From a bacterium (lineage in GTDB: Bacteria > Elusimicrobiota > Elusimicrobia > UBA1565 > UBA9628): 37,354 nt of DNA. Below, piece by piece: positions 6,923 through 37,354 of this stretch (position 1 is the stretch's first letter; each line of letters starts with the position of its first letter). The translations under genes were made by a program, and so were the position numbers. The notes under the pieces were generated by a model, which saw nothing but the letters and a program-made list of their open reading frames with translations, was not told the DNA's origin and did no database searches. The DNA is taken from positions 1 through 37,354 of the forward strand of contig JAJZCM010000015.1 in the NCBI GenBank assembly GCA_021846045.1, given 5' to 3'.

Positions 6923-6932
6923 TCCTATAGAA

Positions 6933-15900: not shown

Positions 15901-18900
15901 GACTGAAGGGAATTGAGCATCGCGATTTGATTGGCGTAAACTGTCGCGGTCGGAGGGCTGTTGCCGCCTGAATTGACGTAGGCCTGGTCCTGTTTTAATT
16001 GCGCCTGAGCTTTGTTTAAGGCGGCAGTCGCATCATTTAAGAATTTTTCGACCTGGGGAATTTCAGTTGTGAGTTCCTGCTGGGAACTTTGAACCGTCGA
16101 AAAGGAATAGAGAAAGCGCGCGATGGAATAAGAAATGGAAGGAGAATTAGCGCTGCTTCCGGCCGATGGCGCCAAGATTTTTGTCGCGTCCAAGGCTAAG
16201 AGGGCCAATTGTTGCGAATTAGAAACCGTCGGAGAGGGCTGATGCCCGGTTTGAACCGCAAGGCCGCCTCCCCCGCCCACATTGATAGGAGATCCGAAAC
16301 CCGCTTGACCCGCGATATTTTTCAACTCGGAAACCAAACCCATCAAATTCCCATTATTAGTCACGGAGAGAGAATAAATCTGGTTATATCCCGCTTGACT
16401 TGCCGCGACGTTAGTCGGCAGTTGATAGGACGACAGATTGTATTTCCCCCCTGACAGGGTCTGGATTTTCGTCAAAATTTGGTTGAGTTGCGCGTCCTGA
16501 TTGTTGATTTCCTTGACGCGCTGATCCATTTCAGTCGTGTAAAGAGTGGTTTTTTTCGGAAGGCTGTACGGCCCGCCGCCGGGATAATTGCTGTCTTTTA
16601 AATAATCCACGGTCTCGTTTCCGTTAAAATTCGGGTCTTTTCTTTCATTGACCTGGGTTAGATTTGTTGAAACCGTCTGTTGAAGGTTGGTGAAATTGTT
16701 CTGCCAGGACTGCAAACTCGAAGCGGCATTTTTGGAATTGCCGCCCAAAGAAATGAGCCCCCCGGGAATGGTCTTATCATTGAGCTGCTGGGTCTGGGTA
16801 ATGAGAGAATTTTCGGCGCTGAAAAGTTCCTGATAGGTTCCATTCTGGGATACTTGCTGAACGGAAGACTCTTGGTAGGGAATGAGGGTATTTTCCAAGC
16901 CGCCTTGAATGGCGGTCAAGGGAGCGATGACGTCGTTTTGAAGCAAGTTTTCCTTGCGGTTAATGAGCGCCTGCACCGCGTTGGTCGGGGGATTGGAGTT
17001 GGCATTGGGATATTGCGCCACGAAGGTCTGATCAGACTGCACATCATTGAGAATGTTTTGCACCATGTTGACCGCTTGCTTCATGGCCGACTGGGCCTGA
17101 GGGACGGTGTTTTGAAGCGCGCTTTGAATGGTGGTCACAGTCGTCTGGGCTTCGCTTCCCTGAATGACCAGCCAAGCTGCCTGCGGCAAGAGGGAAGCGA
17201 TTTTTACCAAATCGAGGGAAGCCTGGAAAGATTGGGGCGTCCCGTTATTGGGAATCTGGACGTTTTCAATATCTGCGCCGTAATTGGCAATTGTGGTCTG
17301 AAGCTGGGTCATCGAAAGTCCTGAAAGCTGGGGCAAGGCCGTGCCGCCGGCCTGGGTGATCTGAGAGGACAGTTGATCCATTTTAGCGATGATGGGGTTG
17401 AGGGATGTTTTCGCTTGGCTTAAGGTTTGGCCGGCCTGGGCTTCCCACGCCGGCAAAGATTGCGGATGGGATCTCCCAAACTCATCGGTCACGGTAATTT
17501 GATTATTCGGATCCAACATGGCCTCAACCGAGTTAAGATCTTGTTGAAAGGTATGAAGCTGTCCTTGCCAGTAAGTCTTGCGCGCGCTTAAAATCTCGGA
17601 GAAGCTCATTGAATTCGAAATGCCCGGGCCTCCCGGAACGTCCTTGATGATCATCGGCCAGGCTTGAGTGGGCGCTGTCTTAAGCTCGTTCAGTCCATTC
17701 TGGGCCGATTGGAGATTAGTCTGAACCTCGCTGAGGATGATTTTAAATTCTCTCAGGGAAAAAGCCGACGGGTCGTTGGGGTTTCCGTTGGTTCGCCATT
17801 GGGACACCTGCCCCAGCTCTTGCTCGCGAAGTTGGAACTTGCTTTCTAAAGCCTGCGCCTCGGAATCAAAACTCCCGGTTTTGACTCCCTCATGGGATGC
17901 AATCGTCGCCATCACGGAGGGAAGCACGCTTTGAACGGCGGTGAAAACTTGAACTGCGGAAGAAGCCTCGTTAAAGTCGGAAGTTAATTGACTTTGCTGG
18001 GTCTGATCGGCCTGGGTCTGCTGAACCGTCTCCTGTTTCCATTGAGGGAGATTGGACTCCGCCTGTTGAGCCGCCGCTTCGTTTTGCTGGGACAAGGTCT
18101 GGGACTGAGTGATACTTTGGATATTCGTGTTTAAAAGATTCTCCATTCCGCCGATGGCATTTTCCGCCGCATTGATTTCACGAAGCCCCAAGGCAAAATC
18201 CATGACTGCCGAAACCTGGGAAAGGCTCTGGATGAAATTCATCATGTCATTCCCGTTTCGGCGATTATTCAAGGCCTGATCCCGCGCCTTGGACACCACT
18301 TCAAGCGTTTTTCTAGTTGCATCTCTCATCTTCATCTGCGCTGAGGCATTGGCCCTCAAAGCTCTAATTTCCTTAACCAGGCTTTCGATTTCTTTTTGAG
18401 TTTCCGGATTGACCGGCGCGATATCGGCCCGCGAGTTTTTATCATCAATTCCGATTTTTTGGTCCAAACTGCTCAAAACCGATTTCAACATCCCGGGGCG
18501 AATCCCCTTATCCTCGGCGTATCCGATGCGATCTTCCGCTCCCCTAGGCACAAGGGTCTTCAATTTATTTTTTAGCTGATGGAGACGTTCGTCGGAATTG
18601 CGGTCGTGGCGGCTTAAATCGCGGCTTTCCGAAAGCTTTGAGCGAACATAGCGCTCGTTTTGGGCTTGCCTTAATTTAGCTAACTGGGCTTTATAGGCCC
18701 TGAGCTCGCCGGGGGTCAAAGGCCGGTTTTGGGTCTTTAGCGCCGCTTCGTTTTTTTGGACCGAGGCCAAGTCTTTTTGAAGCTTAAGTTCTTGCGCGCG
18801 CGCGGCCTTCATCTCCTCGCTAAAATTCCCCGCCGACTTTTCAAGCTCTTTAAGGCGCGCCGCCCTTTCCTTCGGGGTCTTTTTGTAAAGATCGGGATCG

Positions 18901-20927
18901 AAAGGAATCGGCTTATTGGGAGCGGATGCCGTCGTCGTTAAGCCTATGGCGGAAACGCCGGCAGTGTGGGAATTCAAAGTGTGCATTACCGCATCGGATA
19001 AGTTAAATCCCGAAGCCGATTCGGCTTTGTAGAGAAGAATGTTTCCCCAGGTGATCGCGCCGCCCCAAGGAACAAGGCTTTGTCCCTTCGGAGCCTCAAA
19101 GGCCGAGAAAAGCCCGTGAAGGCCGTGAAAATCATGCCCCGTTACGACATGCCAGGCTGGGCTGAGACCCGTGTCAATCTGGGTTCCGTAGGAAAGAATC
19201 CCTTGGATTTCAGAGCCGACGGTCAATAATCCTAGGAAAAATTTGAGGTCCTGCCAAATAAAGAACTTCCAGAATTCACGGGCAAAAATGGCCGAGGCCA
19301 CGGTCTGAGTCCAACCGACGGAATCCGATGGATGTTCCGCTTCAAGCCGGCGGCGATGCTGATCCAGCGACTGGGGCAAGGTAAAAATGGTTGAGAGAAT
19401 GAAGGTGTTTAAGATCGGGCCGAGAACCAAATCCTTCATCAGTGCCTGAGTGGCGGCGGCTACGACTGGAGCAAAAATCCCACCCATCCAGGGAATACCG
19501 GAAATAAAAACAGGAAGGCTGTTGGCGCCCGCAACCAGAAGCGGCCCTATCACGGGAGCTGACAAGAGACTTAAGTGAAGAATCGCAACTCCCGGGGCCA
19601 AGGCGCCCAAAATTCCCATCGCCACCGCTGAGGCCACCGCCATGATAAGCCGCCGCCTTAGAAAAGCGAGAAGCGGCAGGGGAGCAACATGGCCGAACAT
19701 TCTCACTGCGCGGCCAAGTCCGGTCGCGAGAAAACGCGAGGCCAAGGTTTCGCCTGCGCCCGATATCGCGGTTTCGCGCAAAACGCGGCGGAAAAATTTT
19801 TCGGCGTTCTGGGTCTCTACGACTAGCCCACCCTCGGCATCGGCCAGGCTTAAGAAATCCTCGGTTGAATGGGCGAAAGTATAGCTGGCGTTTTGCCGGA
19901 AATAACCCAGGACGAAAACGTCGAACAAATGATAGGGAAAACGGACAAAAAAGCCCAGCAGGTGCTTCTGTATCTCGAAGCTTCGCTCAATCCGGCCCTT
20001 CCACCCGTCTTCATAATGCAAATTCGCCAACTTTTGGAATCCAACATGGTATTTCTGCGCGTCGAAATGTTGGAAGCGCTGGGCATTAAGCCTTTGAAGC
20101 CCTAAATAAACGGAGTCCCATTCGGCATTGGAGGAGCTTTCTTTAAGCCCGACCTTGGAAGCAAGTTTTATAACGCGCGCGCGCGGTATATGGAACTGGC
20201 GGGAAATTTGATCGATGATTTGGGAAGTCTTGGCATTCAAGGGCAGGCGGGAAAGTCCGGAGTCATACTTCAAGCCGGCGACTTTTCGGTAGCCGAGCAT
20301 ATTCTCATAGAAAATTGAAACGCCCGGAGGGCCTTTGGAAGATTTCGGAGGCAACGCCCCTCCAAAGTCGCCCGGAGGCGGCCCTAGCGGCGGCCCTCCG
20401 TCTCCAATTCTCCCCGCACCATCAAAAAGCGCGTTGCTTGCCAAGGCCGCAGACTCGGGAGACCCCGGAGAAGGCGAGTCAGCATTATCGTCATTCCGGC
20501 GACCGAGCATCGGCGAGGAAGCGCCGCTTCCGAGTTTGTTGGAAAGCGGCTGAAAGCCGGAATCCGACCGAGCGATAACGCGAGGAAGCGCCGTTTCCAG
20601 ATTCCGAAGGGGAACGGCCGGACCACCGCGAACGGACTGGACCCCGGCTTTCGTCGGGGTGACGATGGGGGAGTTAGGGACTCCTAACTCGCGTTCGCGG
20701 GAAGGGAGCACCGCGTTCGAAGGAGGAATTTCAGCGCCAAATTGAGACGCCGCAGACGGATCCAAGGATTGTTCAGGAAGAGAGATGGCGTTTCCCAGCG
20801 GATCGGAAGAGTCTTCTTTGGGGGCGTCAGCGGCTAAAACCGTGTAAAAACGGGCGCCCGGAGACAATAAGATCAAGCTGAGCGCCAAAAAGGCCGAGAG
20901 AAACCGCTTGAACTCTTTTTTTATCAT
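6933..20927 (-). CDS. Giant (4664 aa) exported protein with coiled-coil, TolC/outer-membrane-efflux-like and beta-rich segments
   Basis: Single uninterrupted ORF. Signal peptide MIKKEFKRFLSAFLALSLILLSPGARFYTVLAA; hydrophobic N-terminal region around aa 400-520; Q/N/S/T-rich coiled-coil stretch; aromatic/glycine beta-rich stretch; two TolC-like helical regions (RVRYNIMAGKNP..., HSALNVLMGRPADSVLSIDIS); C-terminal TM and KKKKRRKNVL. Confidence 0.85.
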   Translation of the reverse strand: MIKKEFKRFLSAFLALSLILLSPGARFYTVLAADAPKEDSSDPLGNAISLPEQSLDPSAASQFGAEIPPSNAVLPSRERELGVPNSPIVTPTKAGVQSVRGGPAVPLRNLETALPRVIARSDSGFQPLSNKLGSGASSPMLGRRNDDNADSPSPGSPESAALASNALFDGAGRIGDGGPPLGPPPGDFGGALPPKSSKGPPGVSIFYENMLGYRKVAGLKYDSGLSRLPLNAKTSQIIDQISRQFHIPRARVIKLASKVGLKESSSNAEWDSVYLGLQRLNAQRFQHFDAQKYHVGFQKLANLHYEDGWKGRIERSFEIQKHLLGFFVRFPYHLFDVFVLGYFRQNASYTFAHSTEDFLSLADAEGGLVVETQNAEKFFRRVLRETAISGAGETLASRFLATGLGRAVRMFGHVAPLPLLAFLRRRLIMAVASAVAMGILGALAPGVAILHLSLLSAPVIGPLLVAGANSLPVFISGIPWMGGIFAPVVAAATQALMKDLVLGPILNTFILSTIFTLPQSLDQHRRRLEAEHPSDSVGWTQTVASAIFAREFWKFFIWQDLKFFLGLLTVGSEIQGILSYGTQIDTGLSPAWHVVTGHDFHGLHGLFSAFEAPKGQSLVPWGGAITWGNILLYKAESASGFNLSDAVMHTLNSHTAGVSAIGLTTTASAPNKPIPFDPDLYKKTPKERAARLKELEKSAGNFSEEMKAARAQELKLQKDLASVQKNEAALKTQNRPLTPGELRAYKAQLAKLRQAQNERYVRSKLSESRDLSRHDRNSDERLHQLKNKLKTLVPRGAEDRIGYAEDKGIRPGMLKSVLSSLDQKIGIDDKNSRADIAPVNPETQKEIESLVKEIRALRANASAQMKMRDATRKTLEVVSKARDQALNNRRNGNDMMNFIQSLSQVSAVMDFALGLREINAAENAIGGMENLLNTNIQSITQSQTLSQQNEAAAQQAESNLPQWKQETVQQTQADQTQQSQLTSDFNEASSAVQVFTAVQSVLPSVMATIASHEGVKTGSFDSEAQALESKFQLREQELGQVSQWRTNGNPNDPSAFSLREFKIILSEVQTNLQSAQNGLNELKTAPTQAWPMIIKDVPGGPGISNSMSFSEILSARKTYWQGQLHTFQQDLNSVEAMLDPNNQITVTDEFGRSHPQSLPAWEAQAGQTLSQAKTSLNPIIAKMDQLSSQITQAGGTALPQLSGLSMTQLQTTIANYGADIENVQIPNNGTPQSFQASLDLVKIASLLPQAAWLVIQGSEAQTTVTTIQSALQNTVPQAQSAMKQAVNMVQNILNDVQSDQTFVAQYPNANSNPPTNAVQALINRKENLLQNDVIAPLTAIQGGLENTLIPYQESSVQQVSQNGTYQELFSAENSLITQTQQLNDKTIPGGLISLGGNSKNAASSLQSWQNNFTNLQQTVSTNLTQVNERKDPNFNGNETVDYLKDSNYPGGGPYSLPKKTTLYTTEMDQRVKEINNQDAQLNQILTKIQTLSGGKYNLSSYQLPTNVAASQAGYNQIYSLSVTNNGNLMGLVSELKNIAGQAGFGSPINVGGGGGLAVQTGHQPSPTVSNSQQLALLALDATKILAPSAGSSANSPSISYSIARFLYSFSTVQSSQQELTTEIPQVEKFLNDATAALNKAQAQLKQDQAYVNSGGNSPPTATVYANQIAMLNSLQSVLQEGINFYNLKINQYDPGSLGTVNLLSTYYQAMANQVYGSGVTVDQGDLSAMNSMMTALQNTMSSLNSTKSQLLSWMGQLNSPYDSALRRTSEAISSIQDDTRKVLESNHLWTQSKDQLSRTDRILKADMDLVQDKQDRLTHLLDKLKDDGWDRLPNHIKQEIASLHLSDSGWGMGLNSSSGASALVIKKSSFPDFVHNILSSLSGGQNASSADIGSLAQSILSNPQNISQLIPGAQIMNLGDSEDGFYLVYQTGFGVPYGLSSTNQVTLGNVAHVMGSNLSVTAYDTYSPPETGGASNAPWGDKGIGVQVETLRKNDVNYFEAIIHHDILDVPPNMSFGSQANESRLLIFDDYAMLLMNGKLYVGLTGFGDAAAQNSANQPYYYGANAKTSIKLTPVMSLDADQQALFAKDPRQFFETANLDFTGLDPSLNQTFDIAAHGASANFYETKVGPKFDVASLLKQAGIVSKNDENPFTVDLYYANYAGTYDIAQQTLGATILKGFTIYDDAKHPLIDITNTATGELGQQYNIAIDQLSVKLPQNGIVFSAQWQMLGSADAYYAQIGKQLTKRTDVSVGYGSPFVGYNNRLSLMVNTSASLSQLWNDVTHSASNDLNGGKALKDYQKRMTGFLKPQKGQKDINQLKAVFAKDVGRRLIEQKIGTLDHDIKDLRAAGAILDNVKVVGDAGFVSGPVSNNPAELAATGGFMSGTETMVTLSKTQKELLDGKVVSLYKNGLLLQSRLVQLTKDWEENALQIVKARLAAQRAVFLSQNAASVIEKGKANARLAEALEKLSEARVRYNIMAGKNPDSPTPFDDLNLADVQNLVKEIHSFVSAPDRLKKILASLDKTSLEDRIGEDRFNIMDWISFVDQFTFGIGTQIQDLMAGQIFGVGGTLRLPFYDPSSKDKNKSYLFKKEADLREMEDIHSQYRLLANNERQEAAVWGQTAEEMTAALPRTSNELEFAFKAYRNGLISRNELRQAINLWDLNAQATVNSESLAAASGAWAKMDEAVGGKNVSDSPPFSVSDLKGAVQTAFQNSSLEALALHQEEFQALAKADNHITQKFWINLMIGADLTATGAGFLPSFGFTGFPILPIPGAHFQPGELKELQVKADKGKSAYYGALETKLKVETALQMYQDIVQAKAAQSVIAQVDQEVLPGLEQKLSQARSLGDRAKADKIQKEIFNAKLWRAQMVLTNDEAHSALNVLMGRPADSVLSIDISPEKAYQQLQGVLKDQNLVAAQKTIFAARVQVARAYQEMVDRNLKVQDVSADPISLAARTIGRLISALSAEDSGRADKVMAARLRLLMEERQKDSFDAHLANLQARSQVSLQMIDSEIQRLSAKGDSLDFAKVEKLKGDKAAIQASLLSLEGNSSVQDNSASLPANFAELRRRLIDGEEKVTRTPRLDSLPPIPAPGFDKAPAEMFMRYFYARQTLDETPINRGFLEPWIELRLKNKDTPAPDLIALAKLSQDKAERLDKIARERSAALADSELADFTENVRFLNWIQLHHGKEVGTDWADMINSVRQKTLSQSEEIWALLGLSRAQGQTMEERLRLLSNLVPEFKGTDSSGDLPYLVEEINSPAGKARIARMLGLEAFGPQNEKDIFMNQIRADVLAEHMSYQGITPIAAFGIFRGTPIFGGFLEAPDPQEIERGLTDILSNSIREQLKAQGQFKKLEIVLYTQMARVSGGMKEVQADSRLLDEAASDLKQKEWTANHNPESPKAQQDFLEARKNLVQTWEKLITQSADLKSNFISLVSELKALGRKENSSAPNPLLKNLSLGDQRVLENHGLPKNPSDRGLLGYWADRMEDPNFILRQDHYLEKWGISRQMIDSVDSVARLYSAAIRDSKDATAENFSSDERLRLLAKNDARGKRNLLMFGLEALKTEILKKDPQLAFLRQDLEEELSSSDQKRTEYSQAALDLRDAYWNAVSVSPRSEAAFKALEADRQELILAKDALIDSYFASPLKNDEFILKDGLLDNYLKAQQVFDEDLVRTLDLKEVQGNVELMRTLDALYDARKSLNRQIDFKESGRGILALDALIMLEKSRLFAERWEGRSEQSINAVALKIAQLEDKKASWLSHGSKLYPLYAETQMDKDGRRLWTVKRWLSLDEIKDRMNPKNKSKDEIVKINGRYFLEANPNVEFVGGSDAFERQKSETQNGIKGDSHVIDLAERLGRHDFVADDGKNGYSVQELFGSHGLLSQGKVLFFEAPDPKDAGRLHYRLPALAAWARSPDRYEVYVYTGKAAFPSDKFETLESLKASSMKGDFSRIYLSKKGAANLADFFDSRRRAELRAGYVELKLAGYGFMRNERGEVAEIYLNRDDFDAAKKALSDADAGLKVAQLKLIKAQQAQGESEKKEKEAEKAMLDGVRVSNEMSEKIKADTHDQYPKKDKESDKDYAQRLDEQIKKELASNGKYKGEQKYVNSLSKKLNTARDDLKLQSAVFTDAKKQVEDAFKIKRHSKTWSLYRSRDLILGFASDKTLLHAQASPVYGRSVLDDRLSSRKAAVYVRGPIYAAIMDSEGRLVDHYDSASEMEKAAKSWTLKSKTIKGEKNVFESKNQINPALRVSHYEALIDGKNYPVLLNQRYLEKSAKNVSFHLPFKKYWGVMPWRWGSLMMEVPREIVGFPAEWAGRDPRFSHYLGRVAMYKTEGGATEHHGFFRNVAGALDVLNFLPDPVTPYYDLSQFPPDLRVGQSTLMPGDSEASLSGRYKDKDIHFGAQFLERLLRYYQEDINAARLRTLAHFRGGVSEVVINEMQGRDKPYEESQKNGAVGEKALAKALSDKELGLSPNADGSGKTVFSGKPEDIWVNRTQKTVQIDAGAKEYQSDSKEARGYVDQIEKDLPARKSDLASLKKRKIEIERMRKENEALDSGSKVAADRLHEDVYGREIRVLSQQEIESRLKADRAREQVLTRQVSWWKRYIRRLEELEPALMVSFTPHAALSLKGRILSYAAKIALFFGTAAGIFAAIFKKKKRRKNVL
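20481..20665 (-). repeat. Degenerate/composite relative of the 94-bp element inside the giant gene
   Basis: Minus strand has CGTCACCCCGACGAAAGCCGGGGTCCAG (plus 20637-20664) and a second half GGATTCCGGCTTTC...GCCGGAATGACGA split by extra sequence. It contains an imperfect ~32-34-bp direct repeat (20500-20531 and 20565-20598). Terminal GTAAYT repeats are not evident. Confidence 0.6.
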
Positions 20928-25847: not shown

Positions 25848-27332
25848 ATGACGAAACTCGATCTCGAAACGCTCAAGAGTCACTTGTGGGAATCGGCGAA
25901 TATTCTCAGAGGCAGCATTGACGCTTCCGACTACAAGAACTATATCTTCGGCCTGCTGTTTCTCAAAAGGCTGTCCGATGTTTTTGATGAGGAAGCCGAA
26001 AAGTTGATCAAGGAGGGCAAGAGCAAGAAAATCGCCTTCGAGGAAGAGGACGAGCACGAATTTTTTGTTCCTGCGAAGGCTCACTGGAAGCATCTCACCA
26101 CGCTAACCCAGAATCTTGGTGACGCCCTCAACAAGGCCAACGACCAGCTTGAAGAGCATAACCGATCTCTCGAGGGCGTTCTCTCGGCTACCGACTTTAA
26201 CGACAAGGACCGGCTTCCCGATAGCGCTCTCTCAAGACTGATCGTTCATTTTTCAAACATTAATCTTCGCAATGAAAATCTTGCCGAGCCGGACATGCTT
26301 GGCCGCGCCTATGAGTATTTAATCGCGCAATTTGCCGATGACGCGGGTAAAAAGGGCGGCGAGTTCTACACTCCAAAAGAAGTTGTCAGCTTACTGGTTG
26401 ATATCCTTGATCCCCAAGAAGGCATGTATGTTTGCGATCCGGCTTGCGGTTCAGGCGGTATGCTGGTTCAGGCCGTGCATCATCTAAAATCCCTTCATCA
26501 GAACGCGAAAAACATCGTGCTTCACGGCCAAGAGAAAAATATCGGCACCTGGGCCATCTGCAAGATGAATATGCTCCTTCATGGAATTTCAGGGGCGCGA
26601 ATCGAGAAGGGCGACACCATCCGGGAGCCAAAGCTTCTTCAGAAGGGGAAACTCGTCGAGTACGACATCGTCATCGCGAACCCTCCCTTTTCGCTTAAGA
26701 ACTGGGGCGTTGAGTCCGCCGAAAACGACGCCTTTGGCCGCTTCAGATACGGATTGCCGCCGCAGAGTTACGGCGACTTCGCCTTTGTCCAGCACATGAT
26801 CGCGACCTTAAAGCCCTTTGGCCGCGCCGGCATCGTCTTGCCGCATGGCGTACTCTTTCGCGGCGGGGCCGAAGGCAAGATCAGGCAGGGCCTCATTGAG
26901 GAAGATTTGATCGAGGCGGTGATCGGCCTGCCCTCGAATATATTTTCCGGAGCCGGTATCCCGGTCTGTCTATTCATCTTGAACAAGAAAAAACCGGCGC
27001 AGAGAAAAGGCAAGGTTTTCTTTCTGTATGGGGCGCGAGACTTTAAGCAACTTAAGAGCAAAAACGAGTTAAGGCCGGAGGATATCGATAAGATCGTCAA
27101 GGCCTATCGCTCTTGCGGAACCGCTGAGAAATATTCGAGGCCGGTCAGCTTGGATGAAATTCGCCGCAATGACTATAACCTCAACATTCCTCGCTACGTT
27201 GATATCACGGAAGACGAAGCGCCGATTGATGTCCAGCAAACAATCAACGATTTGATCGTGTTGAAAAAAGAGCGCGCGCAGGCCGAGGAAAAAGTCGAGG
27301 GGTATCTTAAGGAGCTGGGGTACAAGGCATGA
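25848..27332 (+). CDS. hsdM: Type I restriction-modification DNA methyltransferase subunit HsdM
   Basis: MTKLDLETLKSHLWESANILRGSIDASDYKNYIFGLLFLKRLSDVFDEE; GRAYEYLIAQFADDAGKKGGEFYTPKEVVSLLV; VCDPACGSGGML; DIVIANPPFSLKNWG (NPPF). Confidence 0.95.
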   Translation: MTKLDLETLKSHLWESANILRGSIDASDYKNYIFGLLFLKRLSDVFDEEAEKLIKEGKSKKIAFEEEDEHEFFVPAKAHWKHLTTLTQNLGDALNKANDQLEEHNRSLEGVLSATDFNDKDRLPDSALSRLIVHFSNINLRNENLAEPDMLGRAYEYLIAQFADDAGKKGGEFYTPKEVVSLLVDILDPQEGMYVCDPACGSGGMLVQAVHHLKSLHQNAKNIVLHGQEKNIGTWAICKMNMLLHGISGARIEKGDTIREPKLLQKGKLVEYDIVIANPPFSLKNWGVESAENDAFGRFRYGLPPQSYGDFAFVQHMIATLKPFGRAGIVLPHGVLFRGGAEGKIRQGLIEEDLIEAVIGLPSNIFSGAGIPVCLFILNKKKPAQRKGKVFFLYGARDFKQLKSKNELRPEDIDKIVKAYRSCGTAEKYSRPVSLDEIRRNDYNLNIPRYVDITEDEAPIDVQQTINDLIVLKKERAQAEEKVEGYLKELGYKA

Positions 27333-27341
27333 GGAAGAAGC

Positions 27342-28145
27342 ATGTTATTTTTTATTGACGAAAGCTGGCAGCTGTCGGCTGACAAAAAGCACAAAGCGGG
27401 AGTTTTGTGCGCGATTCCCATTGACAGCCAGAATTTCAACGACTTTTCAGTCCAATTATTCAATCTCAAGAAAAAACATCTTGGATTTGAGGGCGGCAAC
27501 TTGGAAATCAAAGGGCACAAATTATTACAGCGTTACTACTTTAAGTTAGAGAAAAAATTTCAGGATAAAAGCGTCCAGCTCAACCTAGCGCGGGACATAT
27601 TGTCTCTGTGCGAAAAGAGCGGCCTCAAGGCTTTTGCGACCGTTACTTTTCCTAAAGAAGAGTTGGATTTGGCCTGCGCTAACCCAAACCAATTGGAGAG
27701 GCCATTTTTCTTTCTATTCGAGCGGATTAATCAATTCATGAGGGAAAATCACACCGACATGATTGCCAAACTGGTCTTCGATGATCGCGACGTTAAAACG
27801 AACAATCGCATATCGGCCAGCGTTAGTAATTTCCTTCACAAATCGCATGTAGGGAAATCGTTCGATCGCATATTGAAGGTCCCATTATTCGCCATTTCGA
27901 AGGAAAATGCGGGAATTCAGATGGCGGACATTTGCGGCTATATTATCGGCAGATGGTTTACGGGGGACAATGGTGAGATTTCCCAATTTTTCCGAAGGGT
28001 TGAATCTTTTCAATATGTGAGCGCGGAATTGGTCGGCAAGTTGCCCAACGGCGATCCCTGTCCTTTAAAAGGAATAAAAGTGATCAAAAAAGAACGGGCC
28101 GATCGTAAAAACATACCAATCGGCCCGGATTCTGATGAAGACTAA
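27342..28145 (+). CDS. DUF3800-like protein (first in the island)
   Basis: MLFFIDESWQLS start; KLVFDDRD mid motif; NAGIQMADICGYIIGRW C-terminal motif typical of DUF3800 proteins. Confidence 0.75.
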   Translation: MLFFIDESWQLSADKKHKAGVLCAIPIDSQNFNDFSVQLFNLKKKHLGFEGGNLEIKGHKLLQRYYFKLEKKFQDKSVQLNLARDILSLCEKSGLKAFATVTFPKEELDLACANPNQLERPFFFLFERINQFMRENHTDMIAKLVFDDRDVKTNNRISASVSNFLHKSHVGKSFDRILKVPLFAISKENAGIQMADICGYIIGRWFTGDNGEISQFFRRVESFQYVSAELVGKLPNGDPCPLKGIKVIKKERADRKNIPIGPDSDED

Positions 28146-28295: not shown

Positions 28296-29816
28296 ATGAC
28301 GAAAAAATATGCGCATCCCCTTGAGGAGAATCCATTATTCGGATCATTGCCGATCGAGCTTTCAGAAAACATCCGTTCCATAAATCCCTGGTGGAGAAAC
28401 GAGCCATTTCCTGATTTGCCGAAATTTCATCGTTGGGTATTCAAGCGATTAAAGCATCTGCTTGATCAAGGCATGACCCCGGCTACGGTTTTGCGCGGGC
28501 CGCGCCGAGTTGGGAAAACCATATTGATCAAGCAAATCATTCAGGACCTTCTCGACGCCGGGGTCCCGTCCGGCCATATCCTTTATGTCCCATTTGATGA
28601 GCTTCCATCCCTCCAAGGAATCCAAGAACCGGTGTTGGCGGTGGCGCGCTGGTTTGAAAGGGAGATTATAAAATCTTCCTTCAACGCTATCGGCAAGACC
28701 GCGCAGCCGGCGTATCTTTTTTTCGACGAAGTTCAAAATTTGGAATCTTGGGCGCCCCAAATAAAAAATCTTGTGGACAATCACTCAATCCGCGCCCTCA
28801 TTACCGGCAGCTCGTCTTTGCATATCGAAGCGGGCCGCGACAGTTTGGCCGGACGCATCACGACCGTTGATTTGGGCCCGCTGTTTCTTCGGGAGATTGC
28901 CGAGCTTAGATTCGGGGAAGCGACCGGCCCATTTTGGGGCGACAACGGGTTGGACAAGATCGTCCAGCGCGATTTCTGGATGCAGGCCAAGGAGCGGGCC
29001 AAGCAGGAGACGAGCCTACGAACGCAATCCTTTGCCGCTTTTTCCGAACGCGGCGCCTATCCTATCGCGCATGAGAAAGCGAACACTCCCTGGCCGGAAG
29101 TCGCCGATTATCTAAACGAAACCGTCATCCAACGGGCTATTCAGCATGACCTGCGCATAGGAAGCAGGGGACAGAAGCGGGATGAGAAACTTCTGGAAGA
29201 AGTCTTCCGTCTGTGCTGCCGCTACGCCGGACAAGCCACGGGGCAAAGGGCGTTTGTTCCAGAAATTCGTCAAGCGTTGTCCGGCAATATCGGCTGGAAT
29301 CGGGTTCTTAACTATTTGCGTTTCCTCGATGGGACGCTGCTGATTCGCTTGATTAAGCCGCTAGAACTTCGACTGAAAAAACAGAAATCGCCGCCTAAAA
29401 TCTGCCTTTGCGATCATGCTCTGCGGGCAAGCTGGCTTCAGGAAGTCGTGCCCTTAGATCCAACCGGATTGTCTCAGAATCCGCATCTGACGGACTTGGC
29501 CGGCCACTTGGCCGAGAGCGCCTTGGGTTATTTCCTGGCTTCCATCCCGAACTTGGATACGGCCTATTTCCCGGCCCGCGCCGCCGAGCCGGAGGTGGAC
29601 TTCGTCCTGACGGTGGGGACCAAGCGCATTCCCGTCGAGGTGAAGTATCGCAAGCGCATCGATCCCCACGATGACACCGTGGGTTTGCGGGCGTTTCTTG
29701 AGAAGTCCGCCTATAATGCGCCGTTCGGCCTTCTTGTGACCTTGGATGATGATGTTGCCGTGTTGGACCCGAGGATTATTCCAATTTCGCTTTCTTCGCT
29801 ACTGTGGTTGAAATAG
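28296..29816 (+). CDS. AAA_14/DUF4143-type ATPase
   Basis: TVLRGPRRVGKTILIKQIIQDLL (Walker A), YLFFDEVQNLESWAPQIKNLVDN (Walker B), ALITGSSSLHIEAGRDSLAGRITTVDLGPLFLREI, C-terminal EVDFVLTVGTKRIPVEVKYRKRI. Confidence 0.9.
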   Translation: MTKKYAHPLEENPLFGSLPIELSENIRSINPWWRNEPFPDLPKFHRWVFKRLKHLLDQGMTPATVLRGPRRVGKTILIKQIIQDLLDAGVPSGHILYVPFDELPSLQGIQEPVLAVARWFEREIIKSSFNAIGKTAQPAYLFFDEVQNLESWAPQIKNLVDNHSIRALITGSSSLHIEAGRDSLAGRITTVDLGPLFLREIAELRFGEATGPFWGDNGLDKIVQRDFWMQAKERAKQETSLRTQSFAAFSERGAYPIAHEKANTPWPEVADYLNETVIQRAIQHDLRIGSRGQKRDEKLLEEVFRLCCRYAGQATGQRAFVPEIRQALSGNIGWNRVLNYLRFLDGTLLIRLIKPLELRLKKQKSPPKICLCDHALRASWLQEVVPLDPTGLSQNPHLTDLAGHLAESALGYFLASIPNLDTAYFPARAAEPEVDFVLTVGTKRIPVEVKYRKRIDPHDDTVGLRAFLEKSAYNAPFGLLVTLDDDVAVLDPRIIPISLSSLLWLK

Positions 29817-29823
29817 AAAACGT

Positions 29824-30027
29824 ATGACGCTTCAAGAATTTCGAGAATCACTGCTCGACCAAACCCTGACCTTTCTCTGGCGGCAATGCTCGGCTTTGGA
29901 AATGAGTCGCTATGAGCCCAGGCTTTCGACCGCAGGACTCCCGTCCGATCTGCAACAAAAGACCGCGCTAAAACTGTTGAGCAACATTTTTGGATTAGAA
30001 TATGGCGAACCAAGTCACCACGCTTAA
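29824..30027 (+). CDS. Small 67-aa ORF overlapping the hsdS start; possibly a truncated remnant
   Basis: MTLQEFRESLLDQTLTFLWRQCSALEMSRYEPRLSTAGLPSDLQQKTALKLLSNIFGLEYGEPSHHA; follows the ATPase by a few bp and overlaps 30002..31249. Confidence 0.4.
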   Translation: MTLQEFRESLLDQTLTFLWRQCSALEMSRYEPRLSTAGLPSDLQQKTALKLLSNIFGLEYGEPSHHA

Positions 30028-31249
30028 GATGGAGCAAAAGTTCAAGAAAACTCCCGCCGGGGAGATTCCGATGGATTGGGATGTCGTCAAATTGGGTGAT
30101 ATATCAATTCAACCGGAAGAGCGATTTGTCCCTGTCCCGGGAGATGCCCGTCCTTACATTGGCCTCGAACATATTGGTAGTGGTACCGGACGTCTATTAT
30201 CCACTGGAACCTCCACGACGGTATCAAGTCTGAAGTCAATTTTTCGGGCAGGAGACATTCTTTTTGGAAAATTGCGCCCAAATCTGAAAAAGGTTGTCAT
30301 GCCTCCGTTTGCTGGAGTATGTTCCACTGACATTATGGTCATCCGACCCAAGGATGGATTCTCCCGATCTTTCATGTTCTACCGTCTTCAATCCGCAACA
30401 GCGTTCGATTTTGCCGTAGGAACATCGGGCGGCACTAAGATGCCACGGACATCTTGGCCGCTTTTTAGAAATTATGCCTTCCCCTGTCCACATTTAGCCG
30501 AGCAGAAAAAGATCGCCGAGATTCTTTCTACTGTTGATGACGCCATTGAGAAAACCCGCGCCGGCATTGAAAAAAGCAATCAGCTCAAAAAAGGCCTGAT
30601 GCAAACCCTCCTCACCCGCGGCATCGGGCATAAAAAGTTTAAGAAGAGTCCCGCTGGGGAGATTCCGGTGGAGTGGGAACTATTGACCCTTGGGAAAATC
30701 TCTGAGATACGGAGAGGGGCCTCTCCACGGCCAATTGGAGATCCGAAGTTTTTTGGAAATGGACGGGGATGGGTCAGAATTGCAGATGTTACCAGAAGCA
30801 CGAAATTCCTCCGAACAACCGAACAGCAGCTTTCCCATCTTGGTGAAGCTGGCAGCGTAAAAGTGGATCACGGCGACATCATCATGAGCATATGCGCAAC
30901 AATAGGGAAACCTATAATTGTGGATATGGAGGCGTGTATCCATGACGGTTTCGTCCTCTTCGAAAAATTATCGCCACGAATCCTCAAGGAGTTTCTCTAC
31001 TACTTCCTGCAATGGAAAGAGAACTACTTAGCAGGCAAAGGCCAGCCAGGCGCTCAAAAGAACCTGAACACAACAATCGTGGGAGAAACGGAAATACCTC
31101 TTCCTCCTATCAGTCAACAGAAGTATATCGCCGAGATTTTGTCCGCAGTGGATATGGAAATCGAAAAACAAGAATCGGCGCGTATAATACTTCAGAGGCT
31201 TAAAAAGAGCTTGATGCAAGTGCTTTTAACTGGCAGATTACGGATATAA
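30002..31249 (+). CDS. hsdS: Type I restriction-modification specificity subunit HsdS
   Basis: Two target-recognition halves with repeated motifs: KFKKTPAGEIPMDWDVVKLGDI / KFKKSPAGEIPVEWELLTLGKI, and AEQKKIAEILSTVDDAIEKTRAGIEKSNQLKKGLMQTLLT / SQQKYIAEILSAVDMEIEKQ...LKKSLMQVLLT. Confidence 0.93.
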   Translation: MANQVTTLKMEQKFKKTPAGEIPMDWDVVKLGDISIQPEERFVPVPGDARPYIGLEHIGSGTGRLLSTGTSTTVSSLKSIFRAGDILFGKLRPNLKKVVMPPFAGVCSTDIMVIRPKDGFSRSFMFYRLQSATAFDFAVGTSGGTKMPRTSWPLFRNYAFPCPHLAEQKKIAEILSTVDDAIEKTRAGIEKSNQLKKGLMQTLLTRGIGHKKFKKSPAGEIPVEWELLTLGKISEIRRGASPRPIGDPKFFGNGRGWVRIADVTRSTKFLRTTEQQLSHLGEAGSVKVDHGDIIMSICATIGKPIIVDMEACIHDGFVLFEKLSPRILKEFLYYFLQWKENYLAGKGQPGAQKNLNTTIVGETEIPLPPISQQKYIAEILSAVDMEIEKQESARIILQRLKKSLMQVLLTGRLRI

Positions 31250-31260
31250 TTAGAAAATAA

Positions 31261-32277
31261 ATGAAGAAACGCTGGGAGTATCTTCGCCTCCTCGAAATAT
31301 CCTTGCACGCCATACGTTCGGCAATTGACTGCTTTAACCGTGTCTACGATCCCTATAAAATTGAGACGTGCCTGATCCTCATGACGAATGCCTGGGAATT
31401 GTTGGGGAAAGCTATCCTTGTCAAGACAAGAGGTAAGAAAAGTATTCAAAAAGATCGCCACGGCAATACCCTCCCGGCGGAGCAAATAGTCACTAAACTC
31501 CGAAGTTTTGAATTTTTAGATGAGAATCAAGAGCACTGCCTTCAACAAGTTATTTCACTCAGAAACCACGCATCTCATCATCTTCTTCCCGCAATCCCGG
31601 ACGAGGTGCTTCATCACTTGTTTTATTTTGGATGCAAGTTTTATAAAGATTTAGTCGTCAAACAATTTCCAAGACAGCCCAATATACCGAAACAAAACTT
31701 CCTGTCAATCTCATTTGATAATCTAACAACGTATGCAGAAAAGGTCCAGTCGCTCGTTGGAAGGATGAAAAGAAGCAAACAAGATATGCAACTTGTGTGG
31801 CTACTTGAAAGAGGTGTGTGCTTTGATGGCGTGAAATACATTTCGCAGGATCAATTCGAACGGCAATATAAAAATAAACGCAAAGTTTTGCCGCACCTCC
31901 AGGTAGGCAAATTCTTAAAGGACTCTGAGATGATCAGGGTTGTCCTAATTCAAGCCCCTAAAAACTTTACGGCAGACATAACTCTACGCAAGGGGAAACC
32001 AACTGAGTCGGCTCTGCCTGTTGCCATCAAGAAAACTGACTTGGAGAAAGATTACCCATATCTGACCGTAGAAATGGCCAGCAAACTTGGCAAAAGCCAA
32101 AACTATGTAGCCTATACGCTTAAAAAGCTGAATTACAAAGAGGATTCCCGCTATCACCAATCCGTGCGGTCTTCAAAAAGTGGCACTGTCAACCGTTATT
32201 CAGAAAGCGCATTGAATGACCTTAAGAAATTTCTGGATGGAAATCCTGGATTTAATCCTTATGCAAATGAACCCTAG
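31261..32277 (+). CDS. HEPN-like (DUF3644-like) protein with C-terminal helix-turn-helix
   Basis: CLILMTNAWELLGKAILVKTRGKK N-terminal helical region; QQVISLRNHASHHLLP contains R-x4-H (HEPN-type RNase motif); C-terminal TVEMASKLGKSQNYVAYTLKKLNY HTH pattern. Confidence 0.65.
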   Translation: MKKRWEYLRLLEISLHAIRSAIDCFNRVYDPYKIETCLILMTNAWELLGKAILVKTRGKKSIQKDRHGNTLPAEQIVTKLRSFEFLDENQEHCLQQVISLRNHASHHLLPAIPDEVLHHLFYFGCKFYKDLVVKQFPRQPNIPKQNFLSISFDNLTTYAEKVQSLVGRMKRSKQDMQLVWLLERGVCFDGVKYISQDQFERQYKNKRKVLPHLQVGKFLKDSEMIRVVLIQAPKNFTADITLRKGKPTESALPVAIKKTDLEKDYPYLTVEMASKLGKSQNYVAYTLKKLNYKEDSRYHQSVRSSKSGTVNRYSESALNDLKKFLDGNPGFNPYANEP

Positions 32278-32950
32278 ACCTAATTTTAACGAATCCACTC
32301 TCTCTGAAAAACCCGCGATCGAGCAATTGGTCGGCATGGGTTACGCATTCATCCCGGGTGACAAGCTCGACCCGGAGGCAACACGATCCACGCTCGATAA
32401 AGCTGTCCGCCGAACTTTGCAGGGGTGCGTAGCGGCAATCGCTTTCTTGACCGTGTTAGTGGTTTCAGCACGAGCAAACTCTCCCAAGCCAGCTGGTCTC
32501 AGAAACACGACAGAACGCCACACTATTCAAAATCCTACTATGCCGAGCGCATTTGCCCAGAAAAAGGATATACCCGTCAGTCGGGATTCGGCGAACTCAT
32601 CAGCAGAAAAATCCAGCGTTTATGAGACCCTTTTACTCGCCCTCTCCGCGATGGAAGGTATTCTGTTTGCAATGTTGGGTGTTATTGTCCAAGTCGATTC
32701 CGCTCGCTCCCTAAGAATGGGTTCCAAAGTGTTCCCGATTATTCCATACGTATCTTTTGCACTAACAGCCTTCTGGCTCCAAGCATTGTTTCTCATTCCG
32801 TTTGACATCGGACGTCTTAAGCCAGTGTGTGCTTATGCCATATTTACCGTCAGCGTCATCGCAATCGGAGCAATCGCGGTTCGGGCCATCCGCGCACTCG
32901 ATCCTAACCATGTGGTTGACCGAACACTGGATTGGTATTTCAATGAGTAG
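32267..32950 (+). CDS. Fusion of HsdR N-terminal fragment to a ~4-TM membrane protein
   Basis: MNPRPNFNESTLSEKPAIEQLVGMGYAFIPGDKLDPEATRSTLDKAVRR is near-identical to the HsdR start at 35107; then hydrophobic segments QGCVAAIAFLTVLVVSA, LLLALSAMEGILFAMLGVIVQV, FPIIPYVSFALTAFWLQALFLIPF, CAYAIFTVSVIAIGAIAV. Confidence 0.75.
   Translation: MNPRPNFNESTLSEKPAIEQLVGMGYAFIPGDKLDPEATRSTLDKAVRRTLQGCVAAIAFLTVLVVSARANSPKPAGLRNTTERHTIQNPTMPSAFAQKKDIPVSRDSANSSAEKSSVYETLLLALSAMEGILFAMLGVIVQVDSARSLRMGSKVFPIIPYVSFALTAFWLQALFLIPFDIGRLKPVCAYAIFTVSVIAIGAIAVRAIRALDPNHVVDRTLDWYFNE
32282..32412 (+). repeat. Duplicated 5' end of hsdR (copy A, 87-bp internal deletion)
   Basis: 131 bp aligning to 35110-35327 (218 bp). 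60 bp (gcgatcgagc...gctcgacccg) are identical; flanking differences are mostly third-codon; an 87-bp in-frame gap. Confidence 0.9.
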
Positions 32951-34247
32951 CATTGTAGCAACCAGCCGAAAAAGTCAAGCGGCGGATTCTCTAGTAGACT
33001 TGCTCATTCAACTTGCTGTTGGTCGAGAATATCGCACACTGAGGTACTTCTCCGATTCTCTCCTTCGTCGAGTTGAGAATCTTCCAGCAGATCGGGTTAA
33101 AAGAAAAGCCGATCCGCTTATTTTTGCCTTTTCTCAATTTATTCTGGACCCGATGTTCGATGATGAACAGGCTCGACGAACGGTTAATGATCTGTTTGGT
33201 TGCCTTGTCGAGCATCGTGTTGGTCGGATTCCCCAAGGGCTAGATGACATCGACAGGCTGGTATTTAACGGTCTAATTCCTCGGTTCATGATGGCTTCCA
33301 AGACGGGCGACTCCAAAACCATAACTCGCGCGGCCGAGGGCGTTGTCGAGCTTCCACGAATACTTTCCGGTTTCATTATCGCCTCCGATTTGGAAAGATT
33401 TAGAAAGTTGGCCGATTTGTTGCCAGCCCTCTTTCACGACGAACTTAAGAATCGGAGCTACGTCCAATTTCAACTGGCCTCGGCAAATCTCATAGACGCG
33501 CTGTCTGCCTGGCAGCGGATGGAAAACTCAAAAGCTGAATTTACGCCGCATGTTGAGCAATTGCTTCGCGCCATGATCGCCGTCCAGAAAATTTTATTGG
33601 AGAACTCGAATGGCCCCGAAGTAGTAGGGCCTCTGGCGGACAATATTCTTGCGGTTATGCGCGCGCTCATCAAAATAGAGTACGAGGAGAAAATGTTCCC
33701 AGTCGCACTGAACGCCCTTAAATCCGAGTGTGACGCGATCGACAAATACCCCAGTCTAAGACCGCATCTCTTTGCCGATCTTGAGAATCATGCGTCCCTA
33801 GCGGCACAATATGCCGATCCGAAAGACTTCCGATCAGTTCTTCAATATTGGTCTCTTGCAATGAGGGATGGCTTCCCGCAAGATTTGTACTCGAGATTTG
33901 TGGGTCTAGTCGCGCAACATTGCGACAAACAAAGAATTCTTGATGTCGCAATCCAATTCGCATCGAAAGAATTCCATTTTCTTGTTACTGAACCTGCCCA
34001 AAAAATTTATCCTCAATTTTACCAATACCCCTTGTTTGTTGCCGCCTTGGGAATCGAAAGCAAAGCGACATTCCCTGAAGATTTCAGCAAATTGACCAGA
34101 GCTATTATGGAGCGCCTGCAGGGTCTGGAAAGGACCACACAAGAGGCTGTTCGGAAGAATATCCGGACACTTTGGCGTGAAATGGTCAATGCGGACATGA
34201 GCGATGAGGACTACGATCGGGTATGGGAAAAGCTTCTCGCAATTTAA
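32944..34247 (+). CDS. All-helical protein of unknown function
   Basis: 434-aa ORF from MSSIVATSRKSQAADSLVDLLIQLAVGREYRTLRYFSDSLLRR...; start overlaps the membrane-protein stop (ATGAGTAG). Helix-rich, no family recognised. Confidence 0.7.
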
Positions 34248-34978
34248 TGTTTCAGAATAATTTGGATTCGCCACTCTCTGACCTGAATAAAAACGAAAAA
34301 ACAGGGGGAACTTCGGCTTATCGCTACATTTTCTTGGATGAGGGCGGCAATCTTGATTTTTCTCCAAGCGGAACAAAATATTTTACGCTGACGACTATCA
34401 CGACAAGTCGGCCGTTTTTGCTCTATGGGCCGCTGTCGGACCTGCGCTACGATTTAATAGAGTTTGGGCTCGATATTGAGCATTTTCATGCCGCAGAAGA
34501 CAGGCAAGCCGTTAGGGATAAGGTTTTCGCCGAAATCACCAAGGCCATGCCCGACCTTAGGATCGACTCCCTTATCGTTGAAAAAAGCAAGACCGTCCCG
34601 GCGTTGCGCACGGTTGAGCAATTTTATCCAGGGATGCTGGGATATTTGCTGAGGTATTTGTTCAGGGGGAAGGCGATAGGGAATTGCGATAAGGTCATCG
34701 TCATTACTGATTCCTTGCCGGTGAACAAAAAGCGCCAAACTATAGAAAAGACCGTCAAAATAACCTTGGAAAGGATGTTGCCGGCGCAAACTCCTTTCTA
34801 CCTGTTGCACCATGCTTCAAAGGCTTGTCTCTACCTGCAAGTCGTCGACTATATCAACTGGGCCATTTTCCGCAAGTGGGAAGGAAGCGACCGGCGTAGC
34901 TATGACTTGATCTCCGGAGGGATACAAAGCGAATATGATATTTTTAAGAAGGGAACGACCTATTACTACAAAAAGTGA
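34247..34978 (+). CDS. DUF3800-like protein (second in the island)
   Basis: YRYIFLDEGGNLDFSPSGTKYFTLTTI; KVIVITDSLPVNKKRQTIEKTVKITLERMLP; HHASKACLYLQVVDYINWAIFRKWEGSDRRSYDLI. Start overlaps the upstream stop (TAATG). Confidence 0.75.
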   Translation: MFQNNLDSPLSDLNKNEKTGGTSAYRYIFLDEGGNLDFSPSGTKYFTLTTITTSRPFLLYGPLSDLRYDLIEFGLDIEHFHAAEDRQAVRDKVFAEITKAMPDLRIDSLIVEKSKTVPALRTVEQFYPGMLGYLLRYLFRGKAIGNCDKVIVITDSLPVNKKRQTIEKTVKITLERMLPAQTPFYLLHHASKACLYLQVVDYINWAIFRKWEGSDRRSYDLISGGIQSEYDIFKKGTTYYYKK

Positions 34979-35019: not shown

Positions 35020-35044
35020 TGTCACCAGAGCGGAACCTTTATCT

Positions 35045-35056
35045 CTACTATAGTAG
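35045..35056. promoter_or_regulatory. Candidate operator: perfect 12-bp palindrome upstream of hsdR
   Basis: CTACTATAGTAG followed immediately by GGTAGTAG (third half-site-like repeat), ~50 bp before the hsdR ATG; contains TATAGT. Confidence 0.35.
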
Positions 35057-35106
35057 GGTAGTAGAAAATCCGGTTTTTGTCAATAGAAATTTTTCGGCAA
35101 TAGCGC

Positions 35107-37354
35107 ATGAATCTTAACGAATCCACCCTCTCCGAAAAGCCTGCGATCGAGCAATTGGTCGGCATGGGTTACGCATTCATCCCGGGTGACAAGCTCGACC
35201 CGCAGGAAACTGAGAGTCCCGAGCGCAACTCCCGTCGCGATGTTGTTCTAGTGGACAGGCTTCGTCGAAAACTTGCCGAGCTTAACCCTGAGGCGACCTC
35301 GTCCACGCTCGACAAAGCTGTCCGCCGCGTCACAAATATTGTGGGCACGGATATTCTCGATGAGAATAAGAGCTTTCATAAGGACCTGATCTCGAATGTG
35401 ACTATTGAGCAGGAAACCAACGGCCGCCCTTTCCGGCGAGAGGAGAATGATCCGCGCCTTCAAGGACAGGGGCCCCTTGGCCCCCGGCGAGGCCAGACCG
35501 TTCAATTCATCGACTTTGATAACCCGGAGAAAAATGAGTTTCTGGTTGTGAGCCAGTTCTGGGTCAAGGGACCTCGGCTTTCAGATCGGCCTGATATCGT
35601 GATCTTTGTCAATGGAATCCCGCTGGCCGTCATTGAATGCAAAAGCCCGATTGCGAAAGAGACGGGCATTATTGACGCCCTAGAACAGCTTGCGCGCTAC
35701 CAGCGGGAAATTCCGGCGCTTTTTCGCACGAATCAGCTTCTCATCGGCGCGAACCTCTTTGGCGCCAAATACGGAGTCGTGGGCGCGAGCCCCGATAATT
35801 TCCACGAATGGAAAGAAAAGCCGGAAGAAAAGTTGCCGAACTTGAGCGAGCATCCATCGGTTAAGGAGATGCTGGCGCTTAAGCTAATCAAGAAGGGTGA
35901 CTTGCCCAAGACGCCGGCGGCCCAAGACGTTCTCATCGCGGTTCTCTTTAACAAGCGGAACCTCTTGGACATTATCCGCAACTTCATCGTTTTCGACATG
36001 GACGAAGGAAAAATTCGGAAGAAAATTTGCCGCTATCAGCAGTTTACAGCCGTGCAAAAAATAGTTCATCGCGTCCTTGATGAAAAAGAGAAAAAAGGCA
36101 TCGTCTGGCATTGGCAGGGATCTGGGAAATCTCTCACCATGCTCTTTGCCGCCTTGAAGCTCCGGCGAGAAGAGGCGCGGCTCAAAAACCCTTGCTTTCT
36201 CGTGGTCACGGATAGGCGAGACTTGGATAAGCAGATTTCGGACAACTTTCGCGACTGCGGCTTTCCCAATCCCATCCGCGCGGAAAATTCGCGTGAGCTT
36301 TACGCGATGCTTTCCAATGGCGTCGGCCAAACGATCATGACGACGGTGCAGAAGTTTAGAACGCCGCTCAACAAGCCGCTCTCGGAAGCCAAGAATATCA
36401 TCGTTTTGACCGATGAGGCGCACCGGACCCAATACGGCAATTTCGCTCTTAATCTCAGAAAGGCCCTGCCCAACGCCTCCTTTTTCGCCTTCACCGGAAC
36501 GCCGCTGGATAAGCGCTACCGCAACACCTATCGGCTTTTTAGCCCCGAGGGCGAGAGATACCTCGACAAGTACGGTATCATTGAAGCCGAGAAAGATCAG
36601 GCGACTGTCCCCATCAAATACATGAGCCGCCTGGTCAATCTTCAACTCGTTGGCGCGTCTTTAGATTCATTGCTTGCGGGACTTTTCCCCGGTAAAAATA
36701 AGAAGGAGCTGGTGGAGATTAAACGGCAGTACGCAACGCCCGACGTTTTGGCCAGCGCTCCCCAACGCATCAATCGGATCGCCATGGATATTGTTGAGCA
36801 TTACAGCCAGGCGATTAAGCCGAACGGATTTAAGGCGATGATTGTCGTTGAAACCCGGGAGGCGGCTGATTTATACAAAAAGGCCCTGGATCGGCTCATC
36901 AACCCCAGTCTCTCCGCAGTTGTCATGACCGTCAACCGTGGCGAAGAATGGGCCGAGAAGTACGCCCTATCGGATGTTGAAGAAAGCGCTATCAAGGACC
37001 GCTTTAACGATCCCAAGAGCAGTCTCAATTTTCTAATCGTCTGCGACAAGCTTTTGACCGGCTTTGACGCCCCCATTCTTCAAGCGATGTATCTGGACAA
37101 GCGCTTAAAAGAGCATACCTTGCTTCAGGCGGTAGCGCGGACCAACAGAACGTATCCGAGGAAAAATTTCGGCCTGATCATTGATTACGCCGGGCTTGGC
37201 AAAGAATTGGCCGACACGCTCAAAGAATTCAGCGCCGAGGATATTGAGGGACTTTTCCGGACCGACGACGTCGAGCGCGAGTTAAGCGATCTCGGCGATT
37301 ATCACAGGGAAGCTGTAAAATTTTTTTCGGGCATTTCGCTGGATGGAGAGCCAA
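35107..37354 (+). CDS. hsdR: Type I restriction endonuclease subunit HsdR (partial, continues beyond window)
   Basis: Not in the ORF track because no stop lies in the window. ATG 35107: MNLNESTLSEKPAIEQLVGMGYAFIPGDKLD...; PD-ExK-like DIVIFVNGIPLAVIECKSP; GIVWHWQGSGKSLTM (Walker A); IIVLTDEAHRTQYG (DEAH); FFAFTGTPLDK; LLTGFDAPILQAMYLDKRLKEHTLLQAVARTNR. Confidence 0.95.
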   Translation, partial: MNLNESTLSEKPAIEQLVGMGYAFIPGDKLDPQETESPERNSRRDVVLVDRLRRKLAELNPEATSSTLDKAVRRVTNIVGTDILDENKSFHKDLISNVTIEQETNGRPFRREENDPRLQGQGPLGPRRGQTVQFIDFDNPEKNEFLVVSQFWVKGPRLSDRPDIVIFVNGIPLAVIECKSPIAKETGIIDALEQLARYQREIPALFRTNQLLIGANLFGAKYGVVGASPDNFHEWKEKPEEKLPNLSEHPSVKEMLALKLIKKGDLPKTPAAQDVLIAVLFNKRNLLDIIRNFIVFDMDEGKIRKKICRYQQFTAVQKIVHRVLDEKEKKGIVWHWQGSGKSLTMLFAALKLRREEARLKNPCFLVVTDRRDLDKQISDNFRDCGFPNPIRAENSRELYAMLSNGVGQTIMTTVQKFRTPLNKPLSEAKNIIVLTDEAHRTQYGNFALNLRKALPNASFFAFTGTPLDKRYRNTYRLFSPEGERYLDKYGIIEAEKDQATVPIKYMSRLVNLQLVGASLDSLLAGLFPGKNKKELVEIKRQYATPDVLASAPQRINRIAMDIVEHYSQAIKPNGFKAMIVVETREAADLYKKALDRLINPSLSAVVMTVNRGEEWAEKYALSDVEESAIKDRFNDPKSSLNFLIVCDKLLTGFDAPILQAMYLDKRLKEHTLLQAVARTNRTYPRKNFGLIIDYAGLGKELADTLKEFSAEDIEGLFRTDDVERELSDLGDYHREAVKFFSGISLDGEP
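35110..35327 (+). repeat. 5' end of hsdR (copy B, intact) of the duplication
   Basis: Aligns to 32282-32412 except for an extra 87 bp (caggaaactgagag...cttaaccct). Confidence 0.9.

Follow-up and report, generated by a model that had tools for sequence, protein, structure and literature searches.

What unites the genes that lie between the specificity and restriction subunits of a type I restriction-modification (RM) operon in an Elusimicrobia genome? The operon sits in the window, by which we mean the whole 37,354-nucleotide stretch of DNA analyzed (JAJZCM010000015.1), which is one whole contig of a 2.0-Mb genome. A sequence-only reading had proposed that three overlapping genes, here called A, B, and C, form a defence module combining a sensor, a membrane effector, and a nuclease. 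The three open reading frames and their overlaps (ATGAGTAG and TAATG) are real, and the end of B was placed correctly, although its start lies at 32943 rather than one base later at 32944. That reading overlooked a conserved folded element that begins at the stop codon of C (Table 1).

Table 1. Features of the type I RM operon in the window. L053 to L056 are the loci of four genomes of the same phylum; R1 is our model of the folded element.
Feature	Position	Strand	Evidence
hsdM, type I methyltransferase	25854..27332	+	PF02384 1.1e-106; TIGR00497 above cutoff
Slot-1 cargo: different DUF3800 gene, without folded element	27342..28145	+	PF12686 3.8e-12; 66% homologue in same slot of L056; R1 matches genome once only
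Slot-1 cargo: AAA_14/DUF4143 ATPase	28296..29816	+	PF13173 3.3e-27; PF13635 2.5e-12
Deleted remnant of ~357-aa slot-1 gene, intact in four related loci	29824..30027	+	tblastn to L053 to L056
hsdS specificity subunit	30002..31249	+	PF01420 1.3e-35
Slot-2 cargo: DUF3644 gene (PADLOC candidate PDC-S19, weak HEPN-like matches)	31261..32277	+	PF12358 1.9e-20; PDC-S19 1.8e-23
Truncated hsdR 5′ copy with internal ~78-nt deletion, now first ~48 codons of gene A; start overlaps DUF3644 stop	32267..32412	+	hsdR 5′ repeat comparison
Gene A: chimeric membrane protein, 227 aa (hsdR N-terminus plus ~178 aa with hydrophobic, membrane-like stretches); without detected homologue	32267..32950	+	
Gene B: 434-aa all-helical protein, possibly ARM/HEAT-like; without detected homologue	32943..34247	+	
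Gene C: 243 aa, DUF3800 subfamily, RNase HII-like predicted fold; conserved D31, E32, D155, D201	34247..34978	+	
Three-stem folded element, begins within C stop codon	34977..35040	+	R1, 77.4 bits; two C.A mismatches in stem P1 of window copy
Element tail with GTCAA motif, then hsdR start	35041..35106	+	GTCAA/TCAAG in 32/58 right flanks vs 7.5 (sd 2.5) in shuffles
hsdR, runs past contig end	35107..37354	+	TIGR00348 8.6e-167

The RM scaffold is common to the window and the four same-phylum genomes, with 85 to 88% amino acid identity in HsdM and 76 to 78% in HsdR, and the cargo differs among these five loci in two slots, one between hsdM and hsdS and the other between hsdS and hsdR. The window locus shows the pattern of cargo slots in a type I RM operon: hsdM and hsdR are conserved and the genes between the subunits vary. 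A slot-1 gene of 357 to 361 aa, intact in all four relatives, has shrunk in the window to a remnant of 67 codons; in L053 to L055 an NTase-like gene precedes the intact form.

The second slot carries a repeat of the start of hsdR, with 93% identity between 32282-32382 and 35110-35210, and 80% between 32359-32412 and 35274-35327. The cargo does lie inside the operon and between two hsdR 5′ copies, as had been noted, but the left copy is not outside gene A: it makes up the first ~48 codons of A, which is an in-frame chimera with an internal deletion. Among the 50 type I loci with enough upstream sequence, the first ~40 to 220 bp of hsdR are repeated upstream of hsdR in six (the window, L056, L142, L147, L097, and L109); eight of the 50 were chosen because they carry C, and the count is 4 of 42 in the loci not so chosen, the window included. 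Control hsdR segments taken from 200, 300, and 450 bp inward are repeated upstream in 0/50, 0/49, and 0/49 loci, respectively. In five of these loci (the window, L056, L097, L142, and L147) the truncated copy starts where the preceding gene stops, presumably the place at which hsdR once began. On the simplest reading, we infer that the cargo, on entering the 5′ end of hsdR, brought a second such end with it, such that hsdR stayed intact. The start of A would then be the older hsdR start, and the overlap of A with the DUF3644 gene would be a relic of an old DUF3644-hsdR coupling, giving no evidence for an A-B-C unit. Truncated hsdR 5′ copies offer a sequence signature for the order in which cargo was stacked in type I RM loci. 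At L142 (G044:C62) a single hsdR has two separate hsdR 5′ fragments upstream, which would fit two rounds of cargo stacking, and in L109, from the same genus as the window, C carries an in-frame fusion to part of the hsdR N-terminus (L109:5956-6669; MTLFGSERPAVQNP versus MSNFGSERASVQNP of the downstream hsdR).

Coding scores support B and C in their own frames; for the non-hsdR part of A the score is weak, yet still the best of the six frames. Pfam, PADLOC, NCBIfam, and PHROGs yielded no credible family match to either A or B. Searches for A in 294 genomes of the phylum gave spurious matches only, and matches of transmembrane proteins to A (E about 0.002 to 0.01) proved unrelated, involving ABC permeases and unrelated frames. 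No relatives of B were found in the 294 phylum genomes, plasmids, phages, viral contigs, or a scan of species genomes; two contig scans for B used short exact peptide patterns, sensitive to close relatives only. The description of B as all-helical agrees with its predicted model, which is of low confidence (pLDDT 58), and we set aside its ARM/HEAT fold matches and a plakophilin match (E 0.008) as reflecting generic helices.

Gene C belongs to a wider family. It matches the DUF3800 domain PF12686 at 31.9 bits against a cutoff of 21, and its structural model (pLDDT 86, pTM 0.84) has RNase HII as the nearest PDB fold (1eke, E 7.7e-5). This agrees with the sequence-only assignment of C to DUF3800 and an RNase H-type fold, and C is predicted to be an RNase HII-like nuclease. 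RNase HII/RNase H2 is the best structural match of the predicted model, but C has no convincing sequence match in the PDB, its TM-scores to RNase HII are about 0.5, and its distribution is patchy, unlike that of a housekeeping enzyme. In 45 C sequences D31, D155, and D201 are invariant and E32 is at least 90% conserved; these acidic residues are candidate catalytic residues, and D31-E32 is reminiscent of the DEAGRG motif of RNase HII. We collected 71 homologous loci, 67 from genomes and four from viral contigs, with type I RM genes near C in 11 of them; most of the others adjoin ordinary genes such as thrC, uvrC, and topA (named as read off the sequences). The tree of C groups mostly by phylum, with 17 label changes against a minimum of 14, and transfer between phyla is therefore not rampant. 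The gene C of the window groups with two Elusimicrobia sequences.

The element beside C is ~64 nt long and folds into three stems, P1 (9 bp), P2 (3 bp or more), and P3 (7 bp), with invariant ACC, CTA, and TTT letters among the 55 sequences aligned. Its Watson-Crick covariation is very strong and far above controls: 94.9% of cells are paired, 15 of 19 pairs have changes on both sides, the covariation score is 0.443 (0.189 when shuffled and 0.05 to 0.15 for slid structures), and there are 158 double-change cells, compared with 43 in shuffles and 14 to 23 in slid structures. Model R1 places the element next to C in 65 of the 71 loci, with scores of at least 52 bits in all but one, and the loci with both come from about 15 phyla. 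R1 was built from 54 C loci, in which its matches follow by construction, and the independent tests are the remaining C loci, two plasmid copies (L051 and L052), and the phylum genomes. Six C loci have no full match: L087, L122, and L123 are truncated at a record end, in L121 C itself is just a fragment, L111 lacks any match, and L127 has a weak one (19.7 bits). R1 matches the window's own genome once and 6 of the 294 phylum genomes, and searching with the element alone brought up two further copies, in G024 and G119, each with C next to it. The element is the constant partner of C. Rfam 15 gives no match to it even at E ≤ 10, low-scoring matches included, and among 10 C loci no Rfam match at the gathering cutoff falls at the element.

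The element also has a fixed orientation. In three Chloroflexi loci (L112, L113, and L115) it is found on the opposite strand, upstream of C and ~20 bp from the C start, and even with C so inverted the GACC side faces C and the CCTTT side faces outward, as in all other loci. Pairs of G and U are rare, making up 1.2% of paired cells compared with 6.0% in 18 tRNAs of the same loci, and near the right end, beyond the element, a GTCAA/TCAAG motif recurs in the flanks.

Two sister species differ in the presence of C and its element as one piece. In G119 (L139) they lie between thrC and a symporter gene, and in G162 (L182) the thrC stop overlaps the symporter start with neither C nor the element between. 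Homology breaks at L139 positions 6804 and 7613, with ~9 bp between the breakpoints in G162; the breaks fall at the exact stop/start junction, and C plus element is a discrete unit of ~0.8 kb. Most simply this is an insertion in G119, and the difference may alternatively reflect precise loss in G162. There is a possible ~12-bp duplication at this site, the only empty site found: the other species in G020's genus lack the flank, and the neighbours on Phaeobacter plasmids include no clean empty site. Long flanking repeats that might be target-site duplications occur in 4/62 C loci and 3/157 control ORFs, which is not convincing, and no conserved motif was seen at the left cassette boundary.

With these results, the proposal that A, B, and C act together can be weighed. 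Its appeal lies in overlapping genes within one operon beside RM genes, all bracketed by the two hsdR 5′ copies. The overlaps exist, but they do not stop at three genes: the DUF3644 gene overlaps A by 11 nt, and as the chain starts one gene earlier, three is an arbitrary cut. Overlap between C and the preceding gene carries no diagnostic weight either: among the 51 C homologues open to this test, 18 have their start no more than 20 nt from the stop of an upstream gene, and the upstream genes that C overlaps elsewhere are unrelated. C moves without A and B, neither of which is present in any of the 71 loci with C homologues or has relatives in the collections searched, and the start of A is an hsdR relic. 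A lack of co-occurrence of the three genes elsewhere had been named beforehand as an outcome that would refute the module, and as far as the data reach they do not co-occur elsewhere; the design of sensor, membrane effector, and nuclease finds no support. A genuine three-gene defence module, so rare or fast-evolving that relatives of A and B escape detection, is in our judgment highly improbable. We think it probable instead that cargo was layered into the gap between hsdS and hsdR, giving a patchwork rather than a three-gene system, in which A and B would be passengers with no demonstrable partner.

For C itself, we favor, with some reserve, a one-gene cassette in which an RNase HII-like nuclease has a dedicated folded nucleic-acid partner. 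The cassette would comprise C, its fold predicted, and the ~64-nt element at its 3′ end, in which pairing is evident; it would insert at gene ends, often on a stop/start junction, as the empty site and the recurring context suggest, and would persist by horizontal spread, sometimes landing in defence operons. Counting against this reading are the mostly phylum-wise grouping of the C tree, the single empty site with its possible loss in G162, and the TM-scores of about 0.5 to RNase HII. The partner is more likely RNA than DNA, probably an RNA bound by the nuclease that inhibits or directs it. A role limited to terminating transcription of C or forming a hairpin in its 3′ UTR would fit the element's place after the stop codon and its CCTTT end. 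Its three stems, with loop and junction letters conserved across phyla, and its opposite-strand position upstream of C in Chloroflexi speak against such a role, and we consider it very unlikely. The Chloroflexi loci weigh against RNA too: ~20 bp from the C start on the opposite strand leaves little room for a promoter, and the outward CCTTT side is kept as the end of a mobile element would be. Together with the few G-U pairs, this arrangement suits a folded DNA site better than an RNA. The element might then be a DNA site at the end of a minimal mobile element, with C recognizing and cutting the hairpin and the two forming a transposon-like unit of one gene, a reading that the constant orientation, the GTCAAG motif beyond the element, and the clean empty site also favor. 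Against it, the element has one copy in its own genome, no second end is recognized, the left boundary lacks a motif, and there is no firm target-site duplication; moreover, RNase HII-like enzymes cleave RNA in hybrids. We regard the DNA site as rather unlikely. We are similarly doubtful of the broader proposal that C and the element are an autonomous one-gene mobile element of about 15 phyla, in which the RNase HII-like nuclease would recognize the three-stem hairpin, as DNA or RNA, and insert on stop/start junctions; if true, it has not been described as such. A defence role for C and the element, suggested by their location, is possible.

The preferred reading, a nuclease with a dedicated folded partner, invites comparison with known systems. 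Type III toxin-antitoxin systems such as ToxIN have a nuclease gene beside a structured RNA, and C, a nuclease-like gene beside a folded element, may be seen as analogous, but it has no repeat array and a different fold. For DUF3800 proteins, an RNase H fold and linked putative noncoding RNAs have been reported (PMC10910872), Rfam families including DUF3800-I and DUF3800-IX have been named (PMC11701678), and roles as accessories of CRISPR types V and VI have also been described (PMC12669027). The pairing of a DUF3800 gene with a conserved structured element is thus already known, as is the RNase H fold prediction, but the element here matches no described Rfam motif, is tied to one DUF3800 subfamily, and behaves at the empty site as a discrete insertion. 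Cargo in the hsdS-hsdR gap likewise has precedents in DarTG2 of the RRDM island, where a recombination hotspot was proposed (PMC12255303), and in PrrC, described in one source as a tRNase genetically linked to the type I RM enzyme EcoprrI (PMC2610378); the loci here differ in that a truncated hsdR 5′ copy marks the cargo boundary in 6/50. What appears to be new is the folded element (as set against Rfam models), its constancy over about 15 phyla, the one-gene insertion with its empty site, and the hsdR scars. No function has been established for DUF3800 proteins and the RNAs linked to them in the years since they became known. A compact pair of one gene and a 64-nt element, for which a covariance model, an empty site, and conserved acidic residues are now at hand, makes the question directly testable, including whether the element binds, restrains, or guides the nuclease, or ends a mobile element.

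Some further features of the window deserve mention. The operon's second, different DUF3800 gene has a homologue in L056, and a scan with R1 found no copy of the folded element at it. A single ORF of 4664 codons (6933-20927) has a signal-like start and is rich in coiled coils. A repeated peptide of the type VTPTKVGVQS...GFRRNDE occurs in this and other ORFs (361-2286, 5747-6979, and 6933-20927), and suggests an in-frame insertion of a REP-like DNA repeat.
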